63,086 nucleotides of DNA from NCBI GenBank assembly GCA_026417795.1, contig JAOACP010000010.1:1-63086 (forward strand), read 5' to 3'. Under the pieces are notes generated by a model, which saw only the letters and a list, made by a program, of their open reading frames with translations, ran no database searches and had not been told where the DNA came from. Shown here piece by piece: positions 11,098 through 22,824 of this stretch. The DNA comes from Thermanaerothrix sp. (GTDB lineage Bacteria > Synergistota > Synergistia > Synergistales > Synergistaceae). The translations under genes were made by a program, and so were the position numbers. Position 1 is the first letter of the stretch; every line of letters begins with the position of its first letter.

Positions 11098-13215
11098 ATG
11101 TTTCGAAGGTTTTTTTCCCTGACGGTGGGCCTTTTGCTGTTCACCGGCATGTTTTTTTCTTCTGCCTGGGGGCAGGAGAGGTGGGTCAGCTCTCCGTCCT
11201 TAGGTCCCGGAGGCCTTGTCATAGGGGGTCCCAAGGGGGAGGCGGAGCTGTCCTTCCCGATTCCCCCCGGGCCTTCTGTGGTTCCTTCGCGGCTTGAGCT
11301 GTCGGTGCGCTGCCCGGAGGGGTCCCTTTCGGGCACCCTTTCGGTGTTTTGGGGGAACGTTATGGTGGGTTCCTACAACCTGGCGCCTGGGGATAACCGC
11401 ATCGTCTTCCCCCTTTCGGGCCTCACGTCCCCGGGGACCAAGGTGTCGGTACGGGTGCTTGTAAGCCTCTCCAAGGGCAATTGGGACGATCCGTCCCAGG
11501 ACGTGGGGGTTCAAATAACCTCAGGCCGTCTGGTCTTGGCCGGGGCTTTCTCCATGCCGAAGAGCGTGTCCCAGTGGCTTGCGTCCCTCAACGACGGGGT
11601 GGCGGTGGTGGTGCCCAACGAGGCCAGGGATGAGGAACTCTCCGCCGGTTTCGCCCTGGTGGGTACCTTGAGCCGCCTTCTGCCAGGAGGAAGGGTGGTG
11701 CTCCTGAAGGCCTCCGAGGAGGTATCGGAGCCCTTTCTCCCAAAGGTTCGCGTTCAGCTGGATGACCAGCAGGCCGAGGGGGTCACATTGGACTCCGGGG
11801 GGGCCAACCTGCTTGTAAACGGGGTATCGAGGCAGTCCCTTAGGGACCTGTGCGCCAAGATCTTCGACCCCACCTTGATGGGCATCATGCAGGGAGCCAC
11901 GGTGACCGGCCTGTCCGAGGCCTCCGATGGAGCCCATGGGGCCTGCTGGAGCTATCGCAGGCTTTCAAGATCGTGGGCCCCGGGGTGGTCCTACGAGCTG
12001 GGGGATCTCTTCTTGTGGGGTGGAGTGGTTGAGGGCCTGTCACTCACCGTGAAGGGGGTGGTGCCCCTTGCGGTCAAGGGTGAGGGGAGCGTTGACCTGT
12101 ACGTCAACGGCCAGCTGGCCTGTTCCGAGAGGCTTGAGGACCGCAACGTGGATGTGATCCTGGACGTTCCCGATTGGGTTAACCTCAAGGTGAAAAACCG
12201 GTTGAAGCTGGTGGTTCGAGGCGCCGCGGGCCCTTCTTCACTGCAGGTTGCGTATGCGAAGGTCTCCTATGGCAAGGCCTACGGAATGCTTGGGGACTTG
12301 GGGGCCCTGATGAAGGACAACGTACCGGTTCTCATCGAACGAAATCTCAAGTGGACCGGGGTTCTTGGAGCCCTTTCCGCCTTTCGGTGGCTTTGTTCCT
12401 TGCTGCCCCCCGGGGTTCCCGTGTTCCCCGACGTTCGGTTTTACCAGGATGAAATGGATGTGCCGGAGGGCTTTTTCGTATCTGTGGGGAGCAGTTTGCC
12501 CAAGGACATGGAGGACAGGCTGAGCGTGTTGTACCAGGACGGTCAGCTGAAGCTTACCCATAGGGACGCGGGGGCCAAGCTTTCCGGCGAGGCCTTTTGG
12601 GTGATGGGTCAGTCCCTCCTGGGGGACGGGGGGCTTGCGGTGCTGGTTCCGTCTCGGATGGAGGCGGTTCAGGGGGCCTTCGACGCCCTGGCCGATTACG
12701 GGTCGAACACGGCTAACCAGGACGGCCACGTGTTCTTCTTCGGCCCCGAGGGCCTCAAGGTGGTTGACCTGGGGCTAGGCAAGCCCTTTGGCTGGAGGAT
12801 GGGGGAGCTGTGGAGGTCCCTTTGGACCCCGGTGGCGAGGATAGCCAAGATAGTAAGCAGCGTCCGCATTCCTTGGCCGGCCTTATGGCACAAACAGGAA
12901 ACCCCGGAAACTCCAGAAATTCCAGAAACTCCTAAAACTAAAACGCCGGCCGCTAATAAGGCACCGGCCGCGGTGGATGCGCCGGACAAGTCGGACGAGA
13001 CTAAAACGCCGGAAACGCCGGATGCCCCTCAAGGGTCTTGGATGCAGCACATGTTGGACAAAGGGACCATGTGGACCCTCCTTGGAGGAGTGGTGGCCCT
13101 GGCGCTTTTTGGGGCCGTTCTTTTGAACCCAGGCATCCTTACAAGACCGTTCAGGAAGAAGGAGAAGCGGCAGTCCACCCTGTTGACCAGAAGAAGGCGG
13201 AGCCGCCGCCGCTAG
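11098..13215 (+). CDS. BcsB-like exported, membrane-anchored envelope protein
   Basis: The 705-residue protein has a signal peptide (LTVGLLLFTGMFFSSAWG), a long extracytoplasmic region of about 600 residues rich in beta strands, a Pro/Thr-rich linker (PETPEIPETPKTKTP), a C-terminal helix (WTLLGGVVALALFGAVLLNP) and a basic cytoplasmic tail (RRRRSRRR). This layout, plus segments like MPKSVSQWLASLNDGVAVVVP followed by an alternating alpha/beta domain, resembles BcsB, the envelope partner of cellulose-type synthases. Similarity is at architecture level, not clear motif identity. It lies back to back with a Wsp-like c-di-GMP operon, which fits a c-di-GMP-controlled exopolysaccharide role. No synthase (BcsA with PilZ) is next to it. 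Confidence 0.5.
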   Translation: MFRRFFSLTVGLLLFTGMFFSSAWGQERWVSSPSLGPGGLVIGGPKGEAELSFPIPPGPSVVPSRLELSVRCPEGSLSGTLSVFWGNVMVGSYNLAPGDNRIVFPLSGLTSPGTKVSVRVLVSLSKGNWDDPSQDVGVQITSGRLVLAGAFSMPKSVSQWLASLNDGVAVVVPNEARDEELSAGFALVGTLSRLLPGGRVVLLKASEEVSEPFLPKVRVQLDDQQAEGVTLDSGGANLLVNGVSRQSLRDLCAKIFDPTLMGIMQGATVTGLSEASDGAHGACWSYRRLSRSWAPGWSYELGDLFLWGGVVEGLSLTVKGVVPLAVKGEGSVDLYVNGQLACSERLEDRNVDVILDVPDWVNLKVKNRLKLVVRGAAGPSSLQVAYAKVSYGKAYGMLGDLGALMKDNVPVLIERNLKWTGVLGALSAFRWLCSLLPPGVPVFPDVRFYQDEMDVPEGFFVSVGSSLPKDMEDRLSVLYQDGQLKLTHRDAGAKLSGEAFWVMGQSLLGDGGLAVLVPSRMEAVQGAFDALADYGSNTANQDGHVFFFGPEGLKVVDLGLGKPFGWRMGELWRSLWTPVARIAKIVSSVRIPWPALWHKQETPETPEIPETPKTKTPAANKAPAAVDAPDKSDETKTPETPDAPQGSWMQHMLDKGTMWTLLGGVVALALFGAVLLNPGILTRPFRKKEKRQSTLLTRRRRSRRR

Positions 13216-13263: not shown

Positions 13264-14649
13264 TCATGCGTAAGCCCCTTCCCCCCGGGCCCTCTTCTCC
13301 TCCTTATGCTTGTACATGGCCTTGTCCGCCTCTATCATCATCTCCTCCAGGGTTTTGGAGCCCTCCGGGTGGTCTTGGGATATGCCGTGGCTTACCGATA
13401 TGCTCCCGTGGTTGGCCGTGAGGAGCTCTTCCAGCTGCCCCACCAGCTCCTTGGGATTGAAGCCCTCCTGGTGGATCAGGAAGCAGGCGAACTCGTCGCC
13501 TCCGACGCGTCCTAACACGTCCTGGGACCTGAAGGACTCCATCATGGCCTGGGCCATGGCCTTAAGGAGCTGGTCCCCCGCGTCGTGCCCCAGGGTGTCG
13601 TTCACGTTCTTGAAGCCGTCCAGGTCCATGTATATCAGTGAGACGCACCGGCCCTCCTCCTTGGAGCGCCTTAAAGCCCTTTTGGCCATCTCCAAGAACC
13701 CCCGGCGGTTGTAAATACCCGTGAGGGCGTCGGTTACGGCCTGGGTCTTCAGCTGGTCCCGCAGCGCCACGAGCTCCGTCACGTCCCTTATGACCGCCAT
13801 CCTGCACTGGGACCCGTTCCACATTACCGTGGAGTGCTTGACGTCAAGGATCATTGGGCTGCCGTCCGGAAGGGTAAGCCGCATCTCCCCGGTTGTCTTG
13901 GTTATCAAGGGGAGCAGCTCTTGGGTCCCCGCGGTCTCCATTACGGCTTTGGCGGACATGTTGGAGTAGGCCGCATTACCTGAAAGGTCCAGCACGATCA
14001 CGCCGTCGTCCATTGATTCCAGCACCTGCTGCAGGTTTTGAGACAGGATACGCTTGTCCTCCTCCAGCTGCTCTTGACGGTACAAAAGGTCGTTGAGCTT
14101 CTGGGCGGACTCGGAGGAGGAGTCTATGAGGGAGAAGATCAGGTTCACTATCTGCATCTTCTGGGCGGTTATCTGATGCACCCGTCCGCCGAAGTTGACC
14201 TCCAGGACCACCCTGGCCCTGGCTTCCGGGTTCTCCTCAAGGCGGGCCTGGTTTATGAGGTAGAAGACCTGTTTGAGGATCTGCTCCGGCGAAGAGGGTT
14301 TTACGATGAAGTTGTCAGCCCCCGCCTTCAGGCCGTTTATTACCTCTATGGGATCCGACAGGGCGGTGAGCAGGATCACCGGTATGTCCTTGGTGGCCGG
14401 TGAGGATTTTATCTGCTTTGTAAGCTCAAACCCGTCCATCCTTGGCATCACCACGTCGGATATCACGATGGAGGGTAGCGGATCCATGGCTTTTATGTGG
14501 TCAAGGGCGTCTATTCCGTCCCGGAACCACAGGACGTGGAAGCCCTCCTTCTCCAGTACGCCCTTGAGCCCCCTGCCCTGGGTTGGGCTGTCCTCCACCA
14601 GGACCACAGTGTGGTTGCGGGGATTCAATAAATCGTCCAATATCATCAT
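13264..14649 (-). CDS. Response regulator diguanylate cyclase (REC-PAS-GGDEF), WspR-like
   Basis: The protein has 461 residues: REC domain (1-125; phosphoacceptor Asp65 in VISDVVMPRMDG, Lys in KPSSPEQ), a coiled linker (about 170-210), a PAS-like domain (about 205-300) and a C-terminal GGDEF cyclase (about 300-455) with intact GGDEF (383-387) and an inhibitory RxxD site (Arg374-Asp377). It should make c-di-GMP when phosphorylated and be feedback-inhibited. The frame is open upstream to 14880, but that part overlaps cheB; ATG 14649 has AAAGGA at good spacing. It is the last gene of the chemosensory operon, the position of wspR. The added PAS domain distinguishes it from Pseudomonas WspR. Confidence 0.93.
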   Translation of the reverse strand: MMILDDLLNPRNHTVVLVEDSPTQGRGLKGVLEKEGFHVLWFRDGIDALDHIKAMDPLPSIVISDVVMPRMDGFELTKQIKSSPATKDIPVILLTALSDPIEVINGLKAGADNFIVKPSSPEQILKQVFYLINQARLEENPEARARVVLEVNFGGRVHQITAQKMQIVNLIFSLIDSSSESAQKLNDLLYRQEQLEEDKRILSQNLQQVLESMDDGVIVLDLSGNAAYSNMSAKAVMETAGTQELLPLITKTTGEMRLTLPDGSPMILDVKHSTVMWNGSQCRMAVIRDVTELVALRDQLKTQAVTDALTGIYNRRGFLEMAKRALRRSKEEGRCVSLIYMDLDGFKNVNDTLGHDAGDQLLKAMAQAMMESFRSQDVLGRVGGDEFACFLIHQEGFNPKELVGQLEELLTANHGSISVSHGISQDHPEGSKTLEEMMIEADKAMYKHKEEKRARGEGAYA

Positions 14650-14672
14650 CACCCGTCCTTTCGGCTTGGGGA

Positions 14673-15701
14673 TCAACCTATCAGGTTCCTTAAAAAGCCC
14701 CCCATTTCCGATGGGCTGAGCATCATCTCCGCCGCCCCTATCCGCCAGGCCTCCCCGGGCATTCCCCAAACCACCGAGGATTCTACGTCCTGTACCATGG
14801 TAAGGGCCCCAGCCTCCCTGGCGGCCTTGAGCTCCTGGGCCCCGTCGGACCCCATGCCGGACAGGAGTATGCCGCACCAACCTCCGCCCAGCTCGTTTAC
14901 CAGGGACCTGAAGAGCACCGAAACCGACGGCCTTACCCCGTGCTCCGCCGGGGCCTCGGTTAGCCTTATCCTGCCCTTGTGAAGCTCCATGTGGCGCCCC
15001 GCGGGGGCTGCCAACACCAGGCCATTGGGGGGGACGTCTCCCTCCCGGGCCAGTTTAATTTTATGGCCCGAGGCGTTTTTTATCCACTCCACGTAGCCTT
15101 CGTCGAACCCTTCGCTCATGTGCTGCACCAACAAAACCGGCAGCGGTATGGGGTTGGGAAGGGCTGTGAGTAGCTCCAGCGTGGCCTTGGGGCCGCCGGT
15201 GGAGGCCCCAAGGGCTATCATCTTCAGATTGCGCTTCGCCGTCAGCTCCGAAGCCGCAGGGGCATCGGGCTTCCTTGTGGGTCTTATTTCGGCGCCGTTT
15301 ATTACCGGCATCGCCGTGGAGATGACCCGTCTTGCGAAGTCCTTAGGATCCGTCCCGGGGCTGGGCTTCCCCATGACATCGAAGGCGCCGGCCTCGAAGG
15401 CCTTGAAGGTCAACGCAACTTCCGCCGGCGACCACAGGGAGGATATGACCATCACCGGAACGTCCCAGCGGGACTTTATGCGCCTTATGGCCTCCATGCC
15501 CCCCATGCCGGGCATCTCGATGTCCATGGTCACCAGTTGGAAGTGGCCTTCCGAGAGGTTGAGCACCTCCAACGCCTCCTCGCCGGATTCCGCTAGGGTG
15601 ACTCGATCCACCTCCGGGAGGGAGGATAGTCCCATCCGCATGTATCTTCTGAACGAAAGGGAGTCGTCCACCACCAGCACGTTTATCCCCACCGGTGCCA
15701 T
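14673..15701 (-). CDS. cheB: Chemotaxis response regulator protein-glutamate methylesterase
   Basis: CheB demethylates or deamidates receptor glutamates. About 342 residues: N-terminal REC domain (VLVVDDSLSFRR, TMDIEMPGMGG), linker with Pro/Lys (PTRKPDAP), and the methylesterase domain with catalytic Ser in LGASTGGP, His in LLVQHM and Asp in LSGMGSDGA. AGGAGG lies so close to ATG 15701 that GTG 15692 (MGINVLVVDD) is an alternative start. It corresponds to WspF in the operon and ends 24 nt before the diguanylate cyclase gene. Confidence 0.95.
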   Translation of the reverse strand: MAPVGINVLVVDDSLSFRRYMRMGLSSLPEVDRVTLAESGEEALEVLNLSEGHFQLVTMDIEMPGMGGMEAIRRIKSRWDVPVMVISSLWSPAEVALTFKAFEAGAFDVMGKPSPGTDPKDFARRVISTAMPVINGAEIRPTRKPDAPAASELTAKRNLKMIALGASTGGPKATLELLTALPNPIPLPVLLVQHMSEGFDEGYVEWIKNASGHKIKLAREGDVPPNGLVLAAPAGRHMELHKGRIRLTEAPAEHGVRPSVSVLFRSLVNELGGGWCGILLSGMGSDGAQELKAAREAGALTMVQDVESSVVWGMPGEAWRIGAAEMMLSPSEMGGFLRNLIG

Positions 15702-15741
15702 CACCTCCTGTCAACCTGTCTTCCTTGCCTTTGTGCCCCGG

Positions 15742-17982
15742 TCATCCAAGGAATCCCCATATCATGGATTTGAGCTTGTCCTGGTCGAAGTCCTTCTTCG
15801 ACACGTAGGCGTCCGCCCCGGCCTCCATCCCCATCTTCACCTGCTCCTGGGAGTCCAGGGAGGTTACCACAATGACCGGCAGCCTGGCGGTGGACGGATT
15901 GGCCCTTATGCGCCTTAAAAGCTCGATGCCGTCCATCCTTGGCATCTCCACGTCGGTAACCACCAGATGGAAGGTCTCCTTCGACAACCTCTCCCAGGCG
16001 TCCTGGCCGTCCGAGGCGGTGTCCACCTGGTACCCGAGGGAGCCTATGATGTTCTTGAGAAGGACCCTGGATGTGACCGAGTCCTCCGCCACCAGCACCC
16101 TCTTGGGCCCCGACGGCTTGTCTTCCATCAATGGCGCCGAGTCCCTCTCCAAGGAGTCCAGCAGGTCCTTCACGTCCAGCACCGGCAGCACCATCCCCGA
16201 TCCCAGCACGGTACCCCCAGCGAAGAACCGCACCTTGCCCAGGAACGACCCAAGCCCCTTTACTATCCCCTCATGTTCCCCAAGGATCTGGTCCACCTTT
16301 ACCACTCCGGCCTCCTGGCCGTCGGGAGAGAGGATTACCACACCCTGGGGTCTTAGGGAGGGCTGTGAAGGGGTGTTTATGCCGAACAGCCTCGCCAGGT
16401 CGATTACAGGAAGGTACCTGTCCTTCCCCATGGCGATCCCGCCGGCATGGTCTTCACTGCCTTTAATGGGGCATACCATGGAGACCTGTTGCGAGGGTAT
16501 GCTGAAGGTGTGGCCCCCCGCCTTCACCATCACCCCCCGGTAGGTCCTTACGGCGGCGGGGAAGCGCATTAAAAACGTGGTCCCAAGTCCCTTAGCGGTC
16601 TCCACCTTGATGGAGCCCCCTATCCTGTCCAAGGCCTCCCGTACTATGGACATGCCTATCCCTCGGCCAGAGACGTCCGATATGGTCTGGGCGGTGGAGA
16701 ACCCCGATTGGAATATGAGGTTCAAGATCTCTTCGGTCCCCATGGATGAGGCCTGGTGGCTGGATATGAGACCCTCCCTTAGGGCCTTCCCCTTTATCGC
16801 TTCGGGATCCATGCCCCTTCCGTCGTCCCTGACGGTGATGGTGCAGTCGCTGCCCTGGGTCCCCATGGATATCCATACGGTGCCGGACCTGGGCTTCCCC
16901 AGCTTTTCCCGCTCACCAGGGGATTCTATCCCATGGTCCATGGCGTTCCTCACCAGGTGCATGAGGGGGTCCTTCAGGGTCTCCATGACCTTCCTGTCCA
17001 GCCTTACGTGCCCCCCCGACACCTTAACACTTACGGACTTTGATAGCTTAAGGGCCAGTCCCATGGCGGAGTTCTTGAGGTACTTTAATAGCCACTCCCC
17101 CCGTATCATAGCCATGTCCCTGGCCTTGTGCATCAGGCCCTTTATGGACCTGTCCATGGCTGAAAGGTCCTCCCTAAGCCCCCGGATGACGGGCCTTACA
17201 TCGCCGAAGCCCTTCTCCTCCGATGCGGCGGCGAAGAGCTGGTCCGCCTTCTGGGCCGCGTAAAGGCGCAGCGACATGAGATCCTCCAGCAGGGAGATGA
17301 GCTCCTCCACATCCTTGAAACTGACCCTTACGGTGTCGTCGTGCTCCTGTGGCTGGCCTTGGTGCCCCTTGGGCTCCTGTCCTTCCAGCCCCTGAAGGGG
17401 CATTGCGTCAGAAACCGCGGTCAAGGGCTCCTGGGTCGACGTCCCACTTGCCGCCTTCGGGGCTTCCACGTCTTCCGCGGTAGGGGACTTCGGGCCCTTT
17501 GGGGCGTCGGATATCTCCGCTGTCCTGTGGGCGCCCCCTTGGGCATCCGCCGGGGCCCTTTCGGTTGATGGGGCAGGGCTTGGGGCTTCACCGGCGGGAG
17601 GGGGCGGGGAAGACTTCCCGCTTAGGAGGGCTTCGACTTCCCTTACCACCGCCTCAATGGGCGTGTCTTGACCGCTTATCAGGGCCTCAAGGGCCTCCAG
17701 GCCGGCGGCTATCACCCTAAGGTCCGACGGGACGATCTTTCTATGCCCCTTCCTTGCGGCGGAGAGCAGGGACTCCAGGGACTGGCATAATATGGACACC
17801 TTGGGGTATCCCACCGTCTGGGAGGCCCCCTTCATGTTGTGAAAGGCCCTGTAGGCGGAGTCCAGCCTGGATGAATCCTCAAGCGACCAGGGGTCCTGGA
17901 GCACCTCCTTTATGGTGGAGAGGTACTCATCCGCCTCGATGGCGAAATCCTTTCGAAGCTCTTCCAGGAAATCGTCCTCCAT
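15742..17982 (-). CDS. cheA: Hybrid chemotaxis histidine kinase CheA with C-terminal receiver, WspE-like
   Basis: CheA autophosphorylates and passes phosphate to response regulators. About 746 residues: HPt domain with His48 in AFHNMKGAS, a Pro/Ala/Glu-rich linker (about 125-215), a short dimerisation region, a HATPase domain (HLVRNAMDHGIES, DDGRGMDPEA, SGRGIGMSIV, GLGTTF), a CheW-like domain (VMVKAGGHTFSIP) and a final REC domain (VLVAEDSVTS, VTDVEMPRMDG). The REC fusion is the WspE/FrzE architecture. ATG 17982 is preferred over 17991 because AGGAG is 9 nt upstream of it. The Shine-Dalgarno overlaps the mcp stop, so the two are translationally linked. Confidence 0.95.
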   Translation of the reverse strand: MEDDFLEELRKDFAIEADEYLSTIKEVLQDPWSLEDSSRLDSAYRAFHNMKGASQTVGYPKVSILCQSLESLLSAARKGHRKIVPSDLRVIAAGLEALEALISGQDTPIEAVVREVEALLSGKSSPPPPAGEAPSPAPSTERAPADAQGGAHRTAEISDAPKGPKSPTAEDVEAPKAASGTSTQEPLTAVSDAMPLQGLEGQEPKGHQGQPQEHDDTVRVSFKDVEELISLLEDLMSLRLYAAQKADQLFAAASEEKGFGDVRPVIRGLREDLSAMDRSIKGLMHKARDMAMIRGEWLLKYLKNSAMGLALKLSKSVSVKVSGGHVRLDRKVMETLKDPLMHLVRNAMDHGIESPGEREKLGKPRSGTVWISMGTQGSDCTITVRDDGRGMDPEAIKGKALREGLISSHQASSMGTEEILNLIFQSGFSTAQTISDVSGRGIGMSIVREALDRIGGSIKVETAKGLGTTFLMRFPAAVRTYRGVMVKAGGHTFSIPSQQVSMVCPIKGSEDHAGGIAMGKDRYLPVIDLARLFGINTPSQPSLRPQGVVILSPDGQEAGVVKVDQILGEHEGIVKGLGSFLGKVRFFAGGTVLGSGMVLPVLDVKDLLDSLERDSAPLMEDKPSGPKRVLVAEDSVTSRVLLKNIIGSLGYQVDTASDGQDAWERLSKETFHLVVTDVEMPRMDGIELLRRIRANPSTARLPVIVVTSLDSQEQVKMGMEAGADAYVSKKDFDQDKLKSMIWGFLG

Positions 17983-17994
17983 GGGGCTCATCTC

Positions 17995-19668
17995 CTAGAG
18001 CTTGTATGTGCTCACAAGGTGCAGCAGGTTGTGCCCCTTGGCCTTGAGCTCCTTCGCGGCGGATTCGAGTTCCTTCATGGCGTCGGCGTTCTCCCTGCTG
18101 GAGGTTCGTATCTGCTCCAGCGCCAGGTTCACCTGCTCGACCCCTACGAACAGGTCCTGGTTGGCCTTGAGTATCTGGGCTGCCATCTGGGATATCTCCC
18201 CAAGCTGTCGGGCCATCTGGTCCATGGAGACCTTCACCGGCTCAGTGTGCCTCTCCGCCTCCGACACCGCCCTCATCCCCTGTTCGGTGGCCATAACCGC
18301 CGATGACGTGGCCCGCTGGACCTCCTCCAGCTTGCGCTTTACGTCCTTGGCGGACTGCTTGGACTGTTCCGCCAGGCTCTTTATCTCCTGGGCCACCACC
18401 GCGAAGCCCTTCCCGCTGTCGGAGTAGCGGGCGGCCTCCACCGCCGCGTTCACCGCCAGCAGGTTGGACTGCTCCGCCAGGTCCTCCACGGTGTCCGCTA
18501 TGTCCATTATCTCCCGGCTTCGGTCATTCAGGTTCACTATGGTGCCCGATATGAAGTTCATCCTCTCCATTATAAGCTTGAGGGATTCCAGAAGTCCCAT
18601 CACCGCCTCGTTGGTCCTTATGACCAGTTCAAGCCCCTCCCGGGAGAGCTGCGTGGCCTCCTCCATCCGCTTTGTGGTGGCCTTGGCGGTGGCCTTTATC
18701 TCCTCCATGGAGGAGGAGCTCTCGGTTATGGCGGAGTGGTTTCCCTCCGTTGAGGCCGCCACCTGGGACATGGTGGCCCCTATCTTCACCGCCGTGTCGT
18801 CTATGGTCTTTGAGGTCTCGGCCATCTCCGATATCTGCTCTCTGAGGCTCGTCAGAAGCCGTTCCACGGATCTTGCCATGTCGCCCGCCTCGTCGGACCT
18901 CTTAAGAAACCTCTCGGGGACCTTGAAGTCTATCCTGTGGGACCCTATCTGCCCCATCACGCCGGAGCCCCACCGGAAGGCGGAGGATATCTGGAAGGCA
19001 AGAAGGTATCCGGTGAACGCGATCAGAGCTATTATGACCCCAAGGCCTATAATGGCCTTCATGGCGGAGCGCCTTGCCCTTTCCGCGGATTCCATCAGCT
19101 TTTTGGAGGCCTCGGCGGTCATGTAGCTGGAGAAAGCCTCCGTCTCCTTGCCGAACTGGTCGGATACCTTGAGGAGCTCCCTTATCCTTTCAAGGCCTTC
19201 GGCGTAGATCCTTTCGCGGGATGACCTGTTTTTGCTGCGGCTCAACGCCAAAAGTACCTGGTCCACCTCTTCGTGCCCCTGATGCCACGCCATGTAGTGG
19301 TCCTTCAGGTGCTCCACCATGGAAAGCTCCTTGGGGTTAGACCTTACGTACCGGTTGTTGAGCAGTTTGTCGATGTCCCTGCCCATCTGGTTGATGGTCT
19401 CCCTCTTATGGCTTAGGTTTTTAGATATGTCGCCCCCGTAGAGGTCGTTTATGTGTTCCGAAAGGACGGAGAAGAAGAGCCCCCGTATCTCCACCCGGTT
19501 GTAGTTCAGCCCTTTCGCCAGCAAAAGCGCCTCATGGACCAGCCGCTGGTCCACGGCCATCCTCTCCGCCTGGACGCTGTTTTCCCAAAGGATAAATCCA
19601 AGCCAGACGAGAGAGGCGGACGCTACGGTGATAAGTCCGAGCAGTTTGAGCCTTATGGTCAGCTTCAT
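17995..19668 (-). CDS. Methyl-accepting chemotaxis protein, WspA-like
   Basis: A receptor of about 557 residues: membrane helix (LLGLITVASASLVWLGFILW), a mostly helical periplasmic domain of about 180 residues, a second helix (AIIGLGVIIALIAFTGYLLAF), a HAMP-like segment and a cytoplasmic signalling hairpin with the MCP tip (DLAEQSNLLAVNAAVEAAR, GKGFAVVAQEIKSLAEQS). It senses an unknown, possibly envelope or surface, cue and controls CheA. Starts at 19674 and 19668 are both possible; upstream codons in the open frame look non-coding. It lies mid-operon rather than first as in Pseudomonas wsp. Confidence 0.93.
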   Translation of the reverse strand: MKLTIRLKLLGLITVASASLVWLGFILWENSVQAERMAVDQRLVHEALLLAKGLNYNRVEIRGLFFSVLSEHINDLYGGDISKNLSHKRETINQMGRDIDKLLNNRYVRSNPKELSMVEHLKDHYMAWHQGHEEVDQVLLALSRSKNRSSRERIYAEGLERIRELLKVSDQFGKETEAFSSYMTAEASKKLMESAERARRSAMKAIIGLGVIIALIAFTGYLLAFQISSAFRWGSGVMGQIGSHRIDFKVPERFLKRSDEAGDMARSVERLLTSLREQISEMAETSKTIDDTAVKIGATMSQVAASTEGNHSAITESSSSMEEIKATAKATTKRMEEATQLSREGLELVIRTNEAVMGLLESLKLIMERMNFISGTIVNLNDRSREIMDIADTVEDLAEQSNLLAVNAAVEAARYSDSGKGFAVVAQEIKSLAEQSKQSAKDVKRKLEEVQRATSSAVMATEQGMRAVSEAERHTEPVKVSMDQMARQLGEISQMAAQILKANQDLFVGVEQVNLALEQIRTSSRENADAMKELESAAKELKAKGHNLLHLVSTYKL

Positions 19669-19761
19669 CAACATCCATCCCCAAGCGGATAGAGTGTTTT
19701 GTTCTAAGGTTAAGGCCTTCAATGGATAGGCCTGCGCCTTTCGAGTCGGTCGAAACCCAGG

Positions 19762-20226
19762 TCACGGGGATATCACGTCCGGATCGATCACGGGCACCTC
19801 CCCGAACATCCAGCGCACCGCCCCTGCGCCCAGCACCTCCCGTATCTCGGAGGCCTTGACGTTCACCATGCCCTCCAGCCTGTCGAACCCGATGCCGAAG
19901 GGCCCCTTGAGGTTCTGGGTCATCATGGCCACCGATATCTCCCCGAAACCGGATATGCCCGCCAGGGAAGACGGGTCTATGAGGGGCACGATGCTGCCCC
20001 TCAGGTTGAACACCCCCGCTATGTGGGGGGCGGTCAGCGGAAGGGGAGTGTATCCTATTTTAAGCCGCACTATCTCGCCCCCCTTTGAGGCGGGCACCCC
20101 CAGCCTTTTCCCCATCCTGACGAAGACCAGCATGCTGATGAGCTCCTCCTCCGCCGGCGGTAGATGGGACAGCTTGGCCGCCCTGGCCCTTAACCGTTGG
20201 ACCCTTAGATCCTCTTTTGAACTCAT
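19762..20226 (-). CDS. cheW: CheW-type coupling protein
   Basis: The 154-residue CheW domain protein (ISMLVFVRMGKRLGVPASKGG, IAGVFNLRGSIVPLIDPSSL, FDRLEGMVNVKASEIREVLG) couples the receptor to CheA. An N-terminal extension of about 35 basic residues precedes the domain, as in WspB/WspD-type couplers. ATG 20226 has AGGAGG at 7 nt; the upstream in-frame codons overlap cheR. It is one of two CheW genes flanking cheR, the arrangement of wspB-wspC-wspD. Confidence 0.9.
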   Translation of the reverse strand: MSSKEDLRVQRLRARAAKLSHLPPAEEELISMLVFVRMGKRLGVPASKGGEIVRLKIGYTPLPLTAPHIAGVFNLRGSIVPLIDPSSLAGISGFGEISVAMMTQNLKGPFGIGFDRLEGMVNVKASEIREVLGAGAVRWMFGEVPVIDPDVISP

Positions 20227-20249
20227 CGTAGTGCCTCCTTTTGCGGAGT

Positions 20250-21605
20250 TCATACCAGTTCCCTTGCGGCCCGTCTAAGATGTCCCACCGCTATGTGCGA
20301 TCCGTAAAGCGTAGGTTTCCCGTCGTCCATGTCCTTAAGGCTGTTGAGAAGAAGCCTCCCGTGCCTTTGGGCGGAGGCCACGTCCCCCTCCTTAAGGGAC
20401 AGTATCATGAGGGAGTATCTGGCTTCGGGCATGTCTGGATCGAGATACGCCGCCTCCTTGAGGGCCTCCTTAGCCTCCTTGTGCATCCCCATGTCCGTCA
20501 ATATCACCCCCTTGAGGAACCTGATCTTGGCCCAGGTGGGGTTCTCCGCCTCCGCTAAGGCCAGGAGGGCAAGGGCCCCCTGCAGGTCCCCCCGGTCGGC
20601 GGTGGATTTTATGCTGTAAAAAACCCTGTCCTCCTCATCCTTGTCCACCGCCTTTGGTGCGTCCGCTTCCTTGCTGGATTTCGGGGTGCTTGGTTTGGGT
20701 GTTTCGTTTATTAGGTTCGGGCTTCTTAAAACAGGATGTTGGGCCCCGTCCACTGGGTGATGCTCCCCTTGGAGGGCCCGCCATCCGCCCTCCAGGTTGC
20801 GTGTTGGCCGTCCCTCGCCGGTGGGGGCCGTTTTCCGGAAGACGAAGAGCCCAGAGGGGCTGAAAAGGGTGCCCCTTAGCCTGGTTACCGAAGGAGCCTC
20901 CGCCGCCCCTACAAGAAGAACCCCTTGGGGACTAAGTCTTTCGTGGAAGATGTCCAAGGCCTTACATGTGGCGGAGTCGGAGAAGTATATGAATAGGTTC
21001 CTGCAGGATATGCCGTCGAATAGGCCTTCCGGCGGGGACAGCACGTTGCCCGTGAGGAAGCGCACGTTCTTCCTGTACCTGTCCTTGACCCTGAAGCGCT
21101 CCCCCTGGAGGTGGTCTAGCAAAAGACGCTTCTCATCCCCAAGCCCCCGGAGGGACCATAGGCCGTAGACGCCCTCCATGGCCCGCCGGACGGCGGAGGG
21201 GTTTATGTCGGAGCCCACTATGGAGAAGTCCTCTACCCCCCGCTGGACTAAGAGGAACGCCAAGGAGTAGACCTCTTCGCCGGAGCTGCAGGCGGCGCAC
21301 CACACCCGGGGCCTTCCAATGGCCGACAGGTGTCTTACGAACTCCTCAAGGGCCTCCCGGTGCCTCATGAAGTAGGTTTCCCCCACCGCCAGGCGTTTGA
21401 CCACCTCGTCGCAAAGCTCCTCAAGCCCCATGGAAAGACAGCGGTCCATCCCCGCCTCGCAAAGCCCCTTGAGGGCCCTTAGCACCTGTTCTTCCTGCCC
21501 CCCAAGGTCAAGGCCGTACCGGGCTTCCATCCTTGGGATCAGGGACTTAGTCAGTTCCTGGATCTTCCAAACGTCCCCCTCCGCAGCCCAGTCATGGACC
21601 TTCAG
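20250..21605 (-). CDS. cheR: Chemotaxis methyltransferase CheR with TPR tail, WspC-like; probable CTG start
   Basis: CheR methylates receptor glutamates with SAM. The protein has the N-terminal CheR helix bundle, the catalytic domain (VGETYFMRH, WCAACSSGEEVYSLAF, VGSDINPSAV, FDGISCRNLFIYF) and, after a polar linker, C-terminal TPR-like repeats (about the last 120 residues), the WspC/FrzF architecture. The first ATG in frame (21530) has no Shine-Dalgarno and cuts into the family's first helix. The upstream codons read protein-like (VWKIQELTKSLIPRM) back to a TGA at 21609-21611. I propose a CTG at 21605, seven bases after GGGGGG. A one-base G-run error that would connect an ATG at 21595 is the alternative. 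Confidence 0.88.
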   Translation of the reverse strand: MKVHDWAAEGDVWKIQELTKSLIPRMEARYGLDLGGQEEQVLRALKGLCEAGMDRCLSMGLEELCDEVVKRLAVGETYFMRHREALEEFVRHLSAIGRPRVWCAACSSGEEVYSLAFLLVQRGVEDFSIVGSDINPSAVRRAMEGVYGLWSLRGLGDEKRLLLDHLQGERFRVKDRYRKNVRFLTGNVLSPPEGLFDGISCRNLFIYFSDSATCKALDIFHERLSPQGVLLVGAAEAPSVTRLRGTLFSPSGLFVFRKTAPTGEGRPTRNLEGGWRALQGEHHPVDGAQHPVLRSPNLINETPKPSTPKSSKEADAPKAVDKDEEDRVFYSIKSTADRGDLQGALALLALAEAENPTWAKIRFLKGVILTDMGMHKEAKEALKEAAYLDPDMPEARYSLMILSLKEGDVASAQRHGRLLLNSLKDMDDGKPTLYGSHIAVGHLRRAARELV

Positions 21606-21993
21606 AGATCATCCCCCCGATGTTAAGCACCACCGCCACGGTTTTATGGTCCTCCATCACCACCGCGTCCAACGGCTGCCCCATCACGGTGCAGCGGGTC
21701 CTGGACCGGGCCTCGAAGACCCCCAGCACCTCGTCCACCCATATGCCAAGTACGTCGTCCCCCGATCGGGCCAGCACTATGGCGTCCGAGGTGGCCATAT
21801 CCTTACGAGGTACCCCTAGGATCCCCCTTAGGTCCAGCACCGGCACCATCTCGCCGCTCAAGTTAAGCATCCCCGCCACGGGGCCCTCCCCGGTGGAAGG
21901 GGTGAGAAGCGCCGCGGGAACGGCTCGCACCACCTGCTCAAGGGGCAGGGCCAGATGCCGGTTTTCTACCCTCATGGCAAGGAACGTGTCCAG
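21592..21993 (-). CDS. cheW: CheW-type coupling protein; probable CTG start
   Basis: A second coupling protein of about 133 residues (TFLAMRVENRHLALPLEQVV, GMLNLSGEMVPVLDLRGILG, LGIWVDEVLGVFEARSRT). CheW proteins begin with a strand of the type 'FLxFRLxxxxYALPLExV'. The first ATG in frame (21975) falls inside that strand, so the true start must be upstream. Between the sir2 stop (22015-22017) and 21975 no ATG, GTG or TTG is in frame; a CTG at 21993 lies six bases after GGGGGGGAG. This may be a non-AUG start or a one-base undercall in the G7 run (22002-22008). It is the first che gene after sir2. Confidence 0.85.
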   Translation of the reverse strand: MDTFLAMRVENRHLALPLEQVVRAVPAALLTPSTGEGPVAGMLNLSGEMVPVLDLRGILGVPRKDMATSDAIVLARSGDDVLGIWVDEVLGVFEARSRTRCTVMGQPLDAVVMEDHKTVAVVLNIGGMISEGP

Positions 21994-22014
21994 TGAGATC
22001 TCCCCCCCATGCCC

Positions 22015-22761
22015 TTACGCCATGTCCTTCAGGTGTCCGCTTACCCTCCGGAAGAACGAGTCTATGCCCTCCTGGGCGGTTATGTCCGCCTTGCGGCCCA
22101 GGTTTTGCCAGTTGAAATCCCCCAGGTTCACCACCCCGAGCAACCCTCTTGATGCGGAGGGTATCAGCGCCGCGGGGGTCACGTTAAGGGAGGTGCCTAT
22201 GACCAGCATGAGGTCGCTTTCCGATGCGGACTTGAAACAGCGGTCCAGGTGCTTTACCGGCTCGCCGAAGAAGACTATGTCAGGCCTTATTATGCCAGAA
22301 CAGGGGCACCTTGGCACCTCGTTCAGGCCCAGGAGCTCCCTTACGTCCTGGACGGAGTATGCCTTGCCGCAGGAGGAACAGAAGTTGTGGGTTATGCCGC
22401 CGTGGATCTCGATGACGTCCCTGGAGCCCGCCCGCTGGTGCAATCCGTCCACGTTCTGGGTTATGACCGTCACCTTTTGGGAGCCCTCCAGTTCCGCAAG
22501 GAACCTGTGGGTAAAGGTGGGCTGGGCGTTTAGCATGATGTCCATGAGACCTCGGTGGAAACTGTAGAACTCCGACGGGTCCTCGCGGAACCGGCGGATG
22601 TCGAAGATCCCCTCCGGATCCTTGACGTTTAGGGTCCTGTATATGCCCTTGGGCCCCCTGAAGTCCGGTATGCCCGCCTCGGTGGATATGCCGGCGCCGG
22701 TTAAAACCGTTATCCTTTGGGATTCCTTGATGGCTTGGGCCATCCTCTCCGCTTGGGTCAT
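22015..22761 (-). CDS. NAD-dependent protein deacylase, Sir2 family
   Basis: Sirtuins remove acyl groups from protein lysines using NAD+. The 248-residue product has the NAD-binding motifs GAGISTEAGIPDFRG and TQNVDGLHQRAG, the catalytic His120 (IEIHGG), the FFGE and GTSLNV motifs, and a zinc site. The zinc site reads CSSC and then CPC, one residue tighter than the usual CxxC for the second pair. ATG 22761 is preferred, with GGGGGATG upstream. The promoter in front of it appears to serve the whole che/diguanylate-cyclase operon, since cheW begins about 22 nt after its stop. Confidence 0.93.
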   Translation of the reverse strand: MTQAERMAQAIKESQRITVLTGAGISTEAGIPDFRGPKGIYRTLNVKDPEGIFDIRRFREDPSEFYSFHRGLMDIMLNAQPTFTHRFLAELEGSQKVTVITQNVDGLHQRAGSRDVIEIHGGITHNFCSSCGKAYSVQDVRELLGLNEVPRCPCSGIIRPDIVFFGEPVKHLDRCFKSASESDLMLVIGTSLNVTPAALIPSASRGLLGVVNLGDFNWQNLGRKADITAQEGIDSFFRRVSGHLKDMA

Positions 22762-22795
22762 GACCACATCCCCCGCTTTGTTGTTTTATTTTTTT

Positions 22796-22824
22796 ATTGT
22801 AACCCCCTTATGTTGGGATGCCAA
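22796..22824 (-). promoter_or_regulatory. Promoter of the sir2-che operon
   Basis: On the minus strand, TTGGCA (22824-22819) and TACAAT (22801-22796) are separated by 17 nt, about 35 nt before the sir2 ATG. It is divergent from glgB. On the plus strand TACAAT occurs twice (22840 and 22850), but without a matching -35. Confidence 0.65.

Follow-up and report, generated by a model that had tools for sequence, protein, structure and literature searches.

The window analysed here, 63,086 nucleotides long, is contig 10 (JAOACP010000010.1) of a 1.92 Mb genome in 139 contigs (GCA_026417795.1), which belongs to a third species of Thermanaerovibrio, a heat-loving bacterium of the phylum Synergistota; the two congeners used for comparison are T. 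velox and a second genome that we take to be T. acidaminovorans. Its minus strand carries, from 22767 to 13264, eight genes separated by short or negative intergenic gaps, which very probably form an operon for chemosensory signalling of the 'alternative cellular functions' (ACF) type, with cyclic di-GMP (c-di-GMP) as its output and the sirtuin gene sir2 at its head. The genes are, in sequence, sir2, cheW, cheR-TPR, cheW, mcp, cheA-REC, cheB and REC-PAS-GGDEF. All eight had been proposed in a sequence-only reading of the window, and a profile search of the window proteins supports them, with strong Pfam matches for every domain assignment but PAS. The fusions which that reading had singled out as hallmarks of the Wsp system (CheR-TPR, CheA-REC and receiver-GGDEF), together with two CheWs, are likewise all there. 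Judged by its grouping in phylogenetic trees, the operon belongs to an ACF lineage distinct from Wsp. The features are as follows.

22796..22824, minus strand: promoter-like site TTGGCA-17-TACAAT upstream of sir2; TTACAAT also in T. velox and T. acidaminovorans
22015..22767, minus strand: sir2, NAD-dependent protein deacylase, Sir2Tm-like (Pfam SIR2 2.5e-52)
21592..21993, minus strand: cheW1 (Pfam CheW 5e-16); ATG at 21975, likely CTG start at 21993
20250..21530, minus strand: cheR with C-terminal TPR repeats, WspC-like architecture (Pfam CheR 5e-35, TPR_19 2e-6)
19762..20253, minus strand: cheW2 (Pfam CheW 2.6e-12); 4-bp overlap with cheR
17995..19722, minus strand: mcp, with two transmembrane helices, periplasmic sensor, HAMP-like segment and signalling domain (Pfam MCPsignal 7e-31)
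15742..17991, minus strand: cheA with C-terminal receiver (Pfam Hpt, HATPase_c, CheW and Response_reg)
14673..15704, minus strand: cheB, REC-methylesterase (Pfam CheB_methylest 5e-51, REC 5e-18)
13264..14652, minus strand: diguanylate cyclase, REC, 162 aa with a PAS-like part, GGDEF (REC 6e-26, GGDEF 2e-35)

The probable CTG start of cheW1 (21991-21993) lies behind GGGGGGA and aligns with the GTG start of the T. velox gene. The cyclase more likely starts at 14652, 14649 or 14646, behind AAGGACGG, than at the TTG at 14880, from which the long open reading frame (ORF) would overlap cheB by 208 bp. In the aligned CheA orthologues, the phospho-His, the N and G boxes and the REC residues are all conserved.

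Placement among ACF and Wsp systems

ACF clusters that combine CheR-TPR with regulators joining REC to GGDEF, sometimes with PAS or GAF, are known (PMC3447774). The window operon unites the two features by which that study recognizes the class, a multidomain response regulator and a CheR-TPR encoded within one che cluster, and it also shares with these clusters the CheA-REC and the order cheW-cheR-cheW-mcp-cheA-cheB. The outputs of other ACF clusters vary by phylum (REC-histidine kinase, REC-GGDEF and others), and none was seen with sir2.

A CheA search covering 188 Synergistota genomes found the CheA-REC type in about 18 of them (E < ~1e-95), spread over five families; most genomes with a CheA match contained only the flagellar type. 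The order cheW-cheR-cheW-mcp-cheA-cheB-cyclase was read in 15 out of 19 Synergistota loci, the remaining four being either truncated at contig ends or obscured by overlapping ORF calls. A wider scan took one genome per species and kept the best 80 loci, its counts showing breadth and not frequency. The order up to cheA recurred in 46 of the 73 loci that were neither from Synergistota nor Wsp, many others being cut by contig ends; the groups with this order include Thermodesulfobacteriota, Bacteroidota, Planctomycetota, Acidobacteriota, Spirochaetota and Magnetococcales, among others. A GGDEF protein was encoded at most three detected genes downstream in 17 of these 73 loci, and in Bacteroidota the output was often a receiver-kinase-like protein. 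Given that so many Synergistota and other loci share this order, two earlier claims fall: the gene set is not unusual outside Proteobacteria, and its order is no reshuffled version of wsp, being the usual one of the non-Wsp ACF lineage across many phyla.

The resemblance to the Wsp R-system (wspABCDEF-wspR) lies in the parts, since both have a receptor, two CheWs, CheR-TPR, CheA-REC, CheB and a REC-GGDEF output. As references, nine syntenic Wsp loci from Pseudomonas and other gammaproteobacterial genomes were chosen by gene context (mcp-cheW-cheR-cheW-cheA-cheB-REC-GGDEF); they replaced four distant unannotated matches from a search of a plasmid collection for WspE. Six of the nine read mcp-cheW-cheR-cheW-cheA, while in the others cheR was called in two pieces or mcp went undetected. 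In a CheA tree of 94 rows, the nine Wsp CheAs formed one clade (support 100) and the window protein fell among the other ACF CheAs (99). A more careful tree of 44 rows gave the same division (Wsp 100/100; non-Wsp ACF including the window 100/99), and in a tree of CheA, CheB, MCP and CheR combined, the Wsp systems split off at 100 with the window outside. The Synergistota cyclases also formed a clade (100/98) separate from that of WspR (100/100). A tree with WspE and WspR was the check proposed in the sequence-only reading, and it places both the CheA and the cyclase outside the Wsp and WspR clades. Against our placement stand the approximately unbiased (AU) tests, in which Synergistota and Wsp as one side were not firmly rejected for CheA (p 0.055), nor for the four proteins without an outgroup (p 0.27). 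As these tests are non-decisive, all that is firm is the position of the window outside the Wsp clade, and not where exactly it branches.

It is thus very improbable, and largely refuted, that the operon is a true Wsp system of the R type that reached Synergistota by transfer or underwent rearrangement, in which mcp changed its place and the cyclase gained a PAS domain. Its component set and fusions do equal those of wspA-F/R, and a sister relation between Synergistota and Wsp was not strictly rejected, but Wsp has its own clade of CheA, CheB, MCP and CheR that excludes the window, WspR and the window cyclase lie in different clades, and the gene order is common to loci of other phyla and not to Wsp. 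In addition, a survey that takes wspA-wspF synteny, starting from the receptor gene, as the definition of Wsp confines the system to beta- and gammaproteobacteria (PMC8552884), whereas in the window mcp stands between cheW2 and cheA. Wsp membership was rejected on clade exclusion and gene order. From its shared parts, the length of its receptor signalling domain and its intact GGDEF and I-site motifs, the set would nevertheless be expected to work like Wsp. 'Wsp-type' therefore holds as an analogy and fails as the name of a family: the parts and the REC-GGDEF output with intact motifs stand, and the implied descent does not, the nine Wsp systems being a separate clade with 100% support.

Some Pseudomonas (loci L096, L108 and L112) have a second ACF cluster in the order cheW-cheR-cheW-mcp-cheA-cheB that ends in a REC...GGDEF protein of ~1190-1230 aa; the genome of L108 also holds a Wsp operon (L187).

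The idea of a further flagellar chemotaxis system, one whose output is of the CheY type and which the operon would resemble in its CheA, CheB, CheW and MCP modules, can hardly be maintained: the operon has no stand-alone CheY, its CheA carries a REC tail and groups in the trees with ACF CheAs, and the genome already has a flagellar system elsewhere, with a separate REC-less CheA and CheB, CheD and FlhA nearby.

Receptor, cyclase and proposed signalling

The sensor of the chemoreceptor (window 19033-19605) is predicted to be a four-helix bundle (AlphaFold predicted local distance difference test, pLDDT, 87). VIA-align matched the model best to the ligand-binding domains of the chemoreceptors Vc1313 (Z 16.0), PcaY and MCP2201 (Z 15-16), a Z of 16 being only moderately above the scores for other helical bundles; Foldseek alone gave no sensor match under E 0.001. 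Three of five homologues match 4HB_MCP_1 or TarH. The signalling domain aligns without gaps to those of WspA-type and other ACF receptors and equals the WspA type in length, and the cytoplasmic part contains the methylation-site motif SSSMEEIKAT.

The cyclase has the active site VGGDEF and an RxxD I-site that reads RSQD, and both motifs are preserved in each of the 17 Synergistota cyclases. Its best match among solved structures is PleD of Caulobacter (REC-REC-GGDEF; 3.5e-38), over the receiver and GGDEF; it differs from PleD in that a PAS-like region occupies the position of the second receiver and that its gene lies within a chemosensory operon. The spacer between REC and GGDEF measures 162-165 aa in the 14 Synergistota copies compared, as against 36-51 aa in WspR. 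The extra PAS domain of the earlier reading stands as a long, conserved, PAS-like spacer with a weak match (2.5e-4, slightly below the Pfam cut-off); as a novelty it does not, PAS/GAF-GGDEF regulators having already been reported in CheR-TPR clusters (PMC3447774).

We propose that the membrane receptor, through its periplasmic four-helix-bundle sensor, would control the CheA-REC hybrid kinase by way of the two CheWs. From knowledge of the family, we infer that CheA would phosphorylate the receiver of the cyclase, so that c-di-GMP rises, and also the receiver of CheB. CheR-TPR and CheB would set the methylation memory of the receptor (adaptation), and the REC on CheA may serve as a phosphate sink or an internal brake. 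The c-di-GMP produced would act on the lateral flagella via a PilZ protein of the YcgR type. The genome encodes a single PilZ protein, which is YcgR-like (PilZNR 2e-7, PilZ 9e-10; L191 11930-12613, G000 contig 14) and whose gene sits in the flagellar cluster between cheB and flhA; T. velox is motile by lateral flagella (PMC3910556). This single YcgR homologue points to the lateral flagella as the most likely target, which would be braked or tuned, perhaps on surfaces. The c-di-GMP-I riboswitch (RF01051) gave no match in the genome, in a search whose controls gave no match either.

Several observations weigh against this account of the output. The loci L042 and L054 (genomes G042 and G041) have che genes like those of other Synergistota and no cyclase detected behind cheB; their output regulator may have been relocated or lost. 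The genome contains 13 GGDEF matches, about 11 of them strong, and two or three EAL matches; with so many strong GGDEF domains, YcgR could receive its c-di-GMP from a cyclase other than that of the operon. Finally, the target was chosen from a survey of c-di-GMP receptors of the PilZ kind.

Beside the operon, a 705-aa protein encoded at window 11098-13215 on the plus strand, convergent with the cyclase gene, is kept in all three Thermanaerovibrio; it had no Pfam or NCBIfam match.

The sirtuin gene at the head of the operon

The closest solved structure to the window Sir2 is that of T. maritima Sir2 (1.4e-50). The NAD-binding, catalytic His and zinc cysteine motifs are kept (GAGIS, TQNVDGLHQRAG, IHGG and CxxC...CxC), as in Sir2Tm and the CobB sirtuins; the differences are a CxC spacing of the third and fourth cysteines, shared by nearly all of the Synergistota orthologues in the comparison, and the position of the gene at the head of a chemosensory operon. 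A sirtuin was found in 171 of the 188 Synergistota genomes, and each Thermanaerovibrio has a single copy, so that the operon-leading gene is the sole sirtuin of the cell. In all three Thermanaerovibrio, sir2 is the first gene, on the same strand and with a short gap to cheW1, which bears out its earlier assignment to the operon head. The CheAs of these species are only 51-73% identical, which means that the arrangement has outlasted a long divergence. In G124 (L049/L194), a related genus and the sister of Thermanaerovibrio in the four-protein tree (97), sir2 shares the strand of cheW1 and lies 3 kb upstream of it, the intervening genes for a receiver and a histidine kinase being in the opposite orientation; this layout suggests an older sir2-che neighbourhood. 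In Thermanaerovibrio, sir2 has come to lead the operon. In other operon-bearing genomes, among them G021-G023, G109 and G114, sir2 is distant or on another contig, ~333 kb away in G021, and none was detected around other ACF loci in the stretches fetched, of up to 9 kb on each side. Searches of the literature for Synergistetes with chemotaxis and c-di-GMP, and for clusters of sirtuin, chemosensory and cyclase genes, returned nothing relevant, and no description of a sir2-led chemosensory operon was found within their incomplete coverage. The sirtuin lead gene is thus real, lineage-restricted and unusual.

The promoter that the earlier reading placed before sir2 has a good sigma-70-like candidate in TTGGCA-17-TACAAT (22824-22796), which matches 10 of 12 consensus positions and is the best-scoring site of a region where six promoter-like sites were found against 2.9 expected. 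The TTACAAT element stands at the same place before sir2 in both other Thermanaerovibrio. Gene spacing is consistent with a single transcript across all eight genes, and sir2 is probably co-transcribed with the che genes.

That sir2 shares a transcript with the che genes and has no specific tie to them is more likely than a functional role for Sir2 in the pathway. Sir2 is probably a deacylase with housekeeping duties that simply uses the operon promoter: it is single copy and orthologous to sirtuins located elsewhere in other Synergistota, and its adjacency to the che genes is confined to one lineage. What this account explains less well is that both the adjacency and TTACAAT are conserved across three diverged species.

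A direct role for Sir2 in the pathway, as a deacylase of CheA, CheW or the cyclase that is itself subject to feedback by c-di-GMP, seems unlikely, though it has some points in its favour. Besides the first-gene position in the three diverged Thermanaerovibrio and the upstream, same-strand sir2 of G124, there is a gap among the usual targets. AcsA is the classic sirtuin substrate; none was found above the NCBIfam cut-off in the three Thermanaerovibrio genomes (G000, G174 and G175), so this substrate may be missing in the genus. The proposal also has a precedent in E. coli, where CobB deacetylates CheY (PMC2883070) and, as cited from Xu 2019 in PMC8603916, deacetylates and activates DgcZ and is inhibited by c-di-GMP; with CobB acting on both kinds of protein, a functional link of sir2 is plausible here. 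Against it, sirtuins are near universal in the phylum, sir2 lies apart from the operon in other genomes that carry it and was not detected in the stretches fetched around other ACF loci, and the adjacency may reflect chance fixation.

Its fullest form, a co-transcribed circuit in which NAD-dependent deacylation would tune CheA, CheW or the cyclase while c-di-GMP restrains Sir2, is more doubtful still. If true, the chemoreceptor array and the redox and acyl state of the cell would jointly set c-di-GMP, and the operon would encode its own version of the E. coli CobB-DgcZ loop.

Implications

With this operon, Synergistota have a full chemosensory route to c-di-GMP that lies outside the Wsp clade. 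Given that different cyclase lineages are found on ACF arrays, such arrays may have acquired a c-di-GMP output on more than one occasion. A functional sir2 link would make the operon a simple genetic handle on the mutual control of protein acylation and c-di-GMP; even without such a link, the operon cautions against recognizing a Wsp system by its list of components alone.

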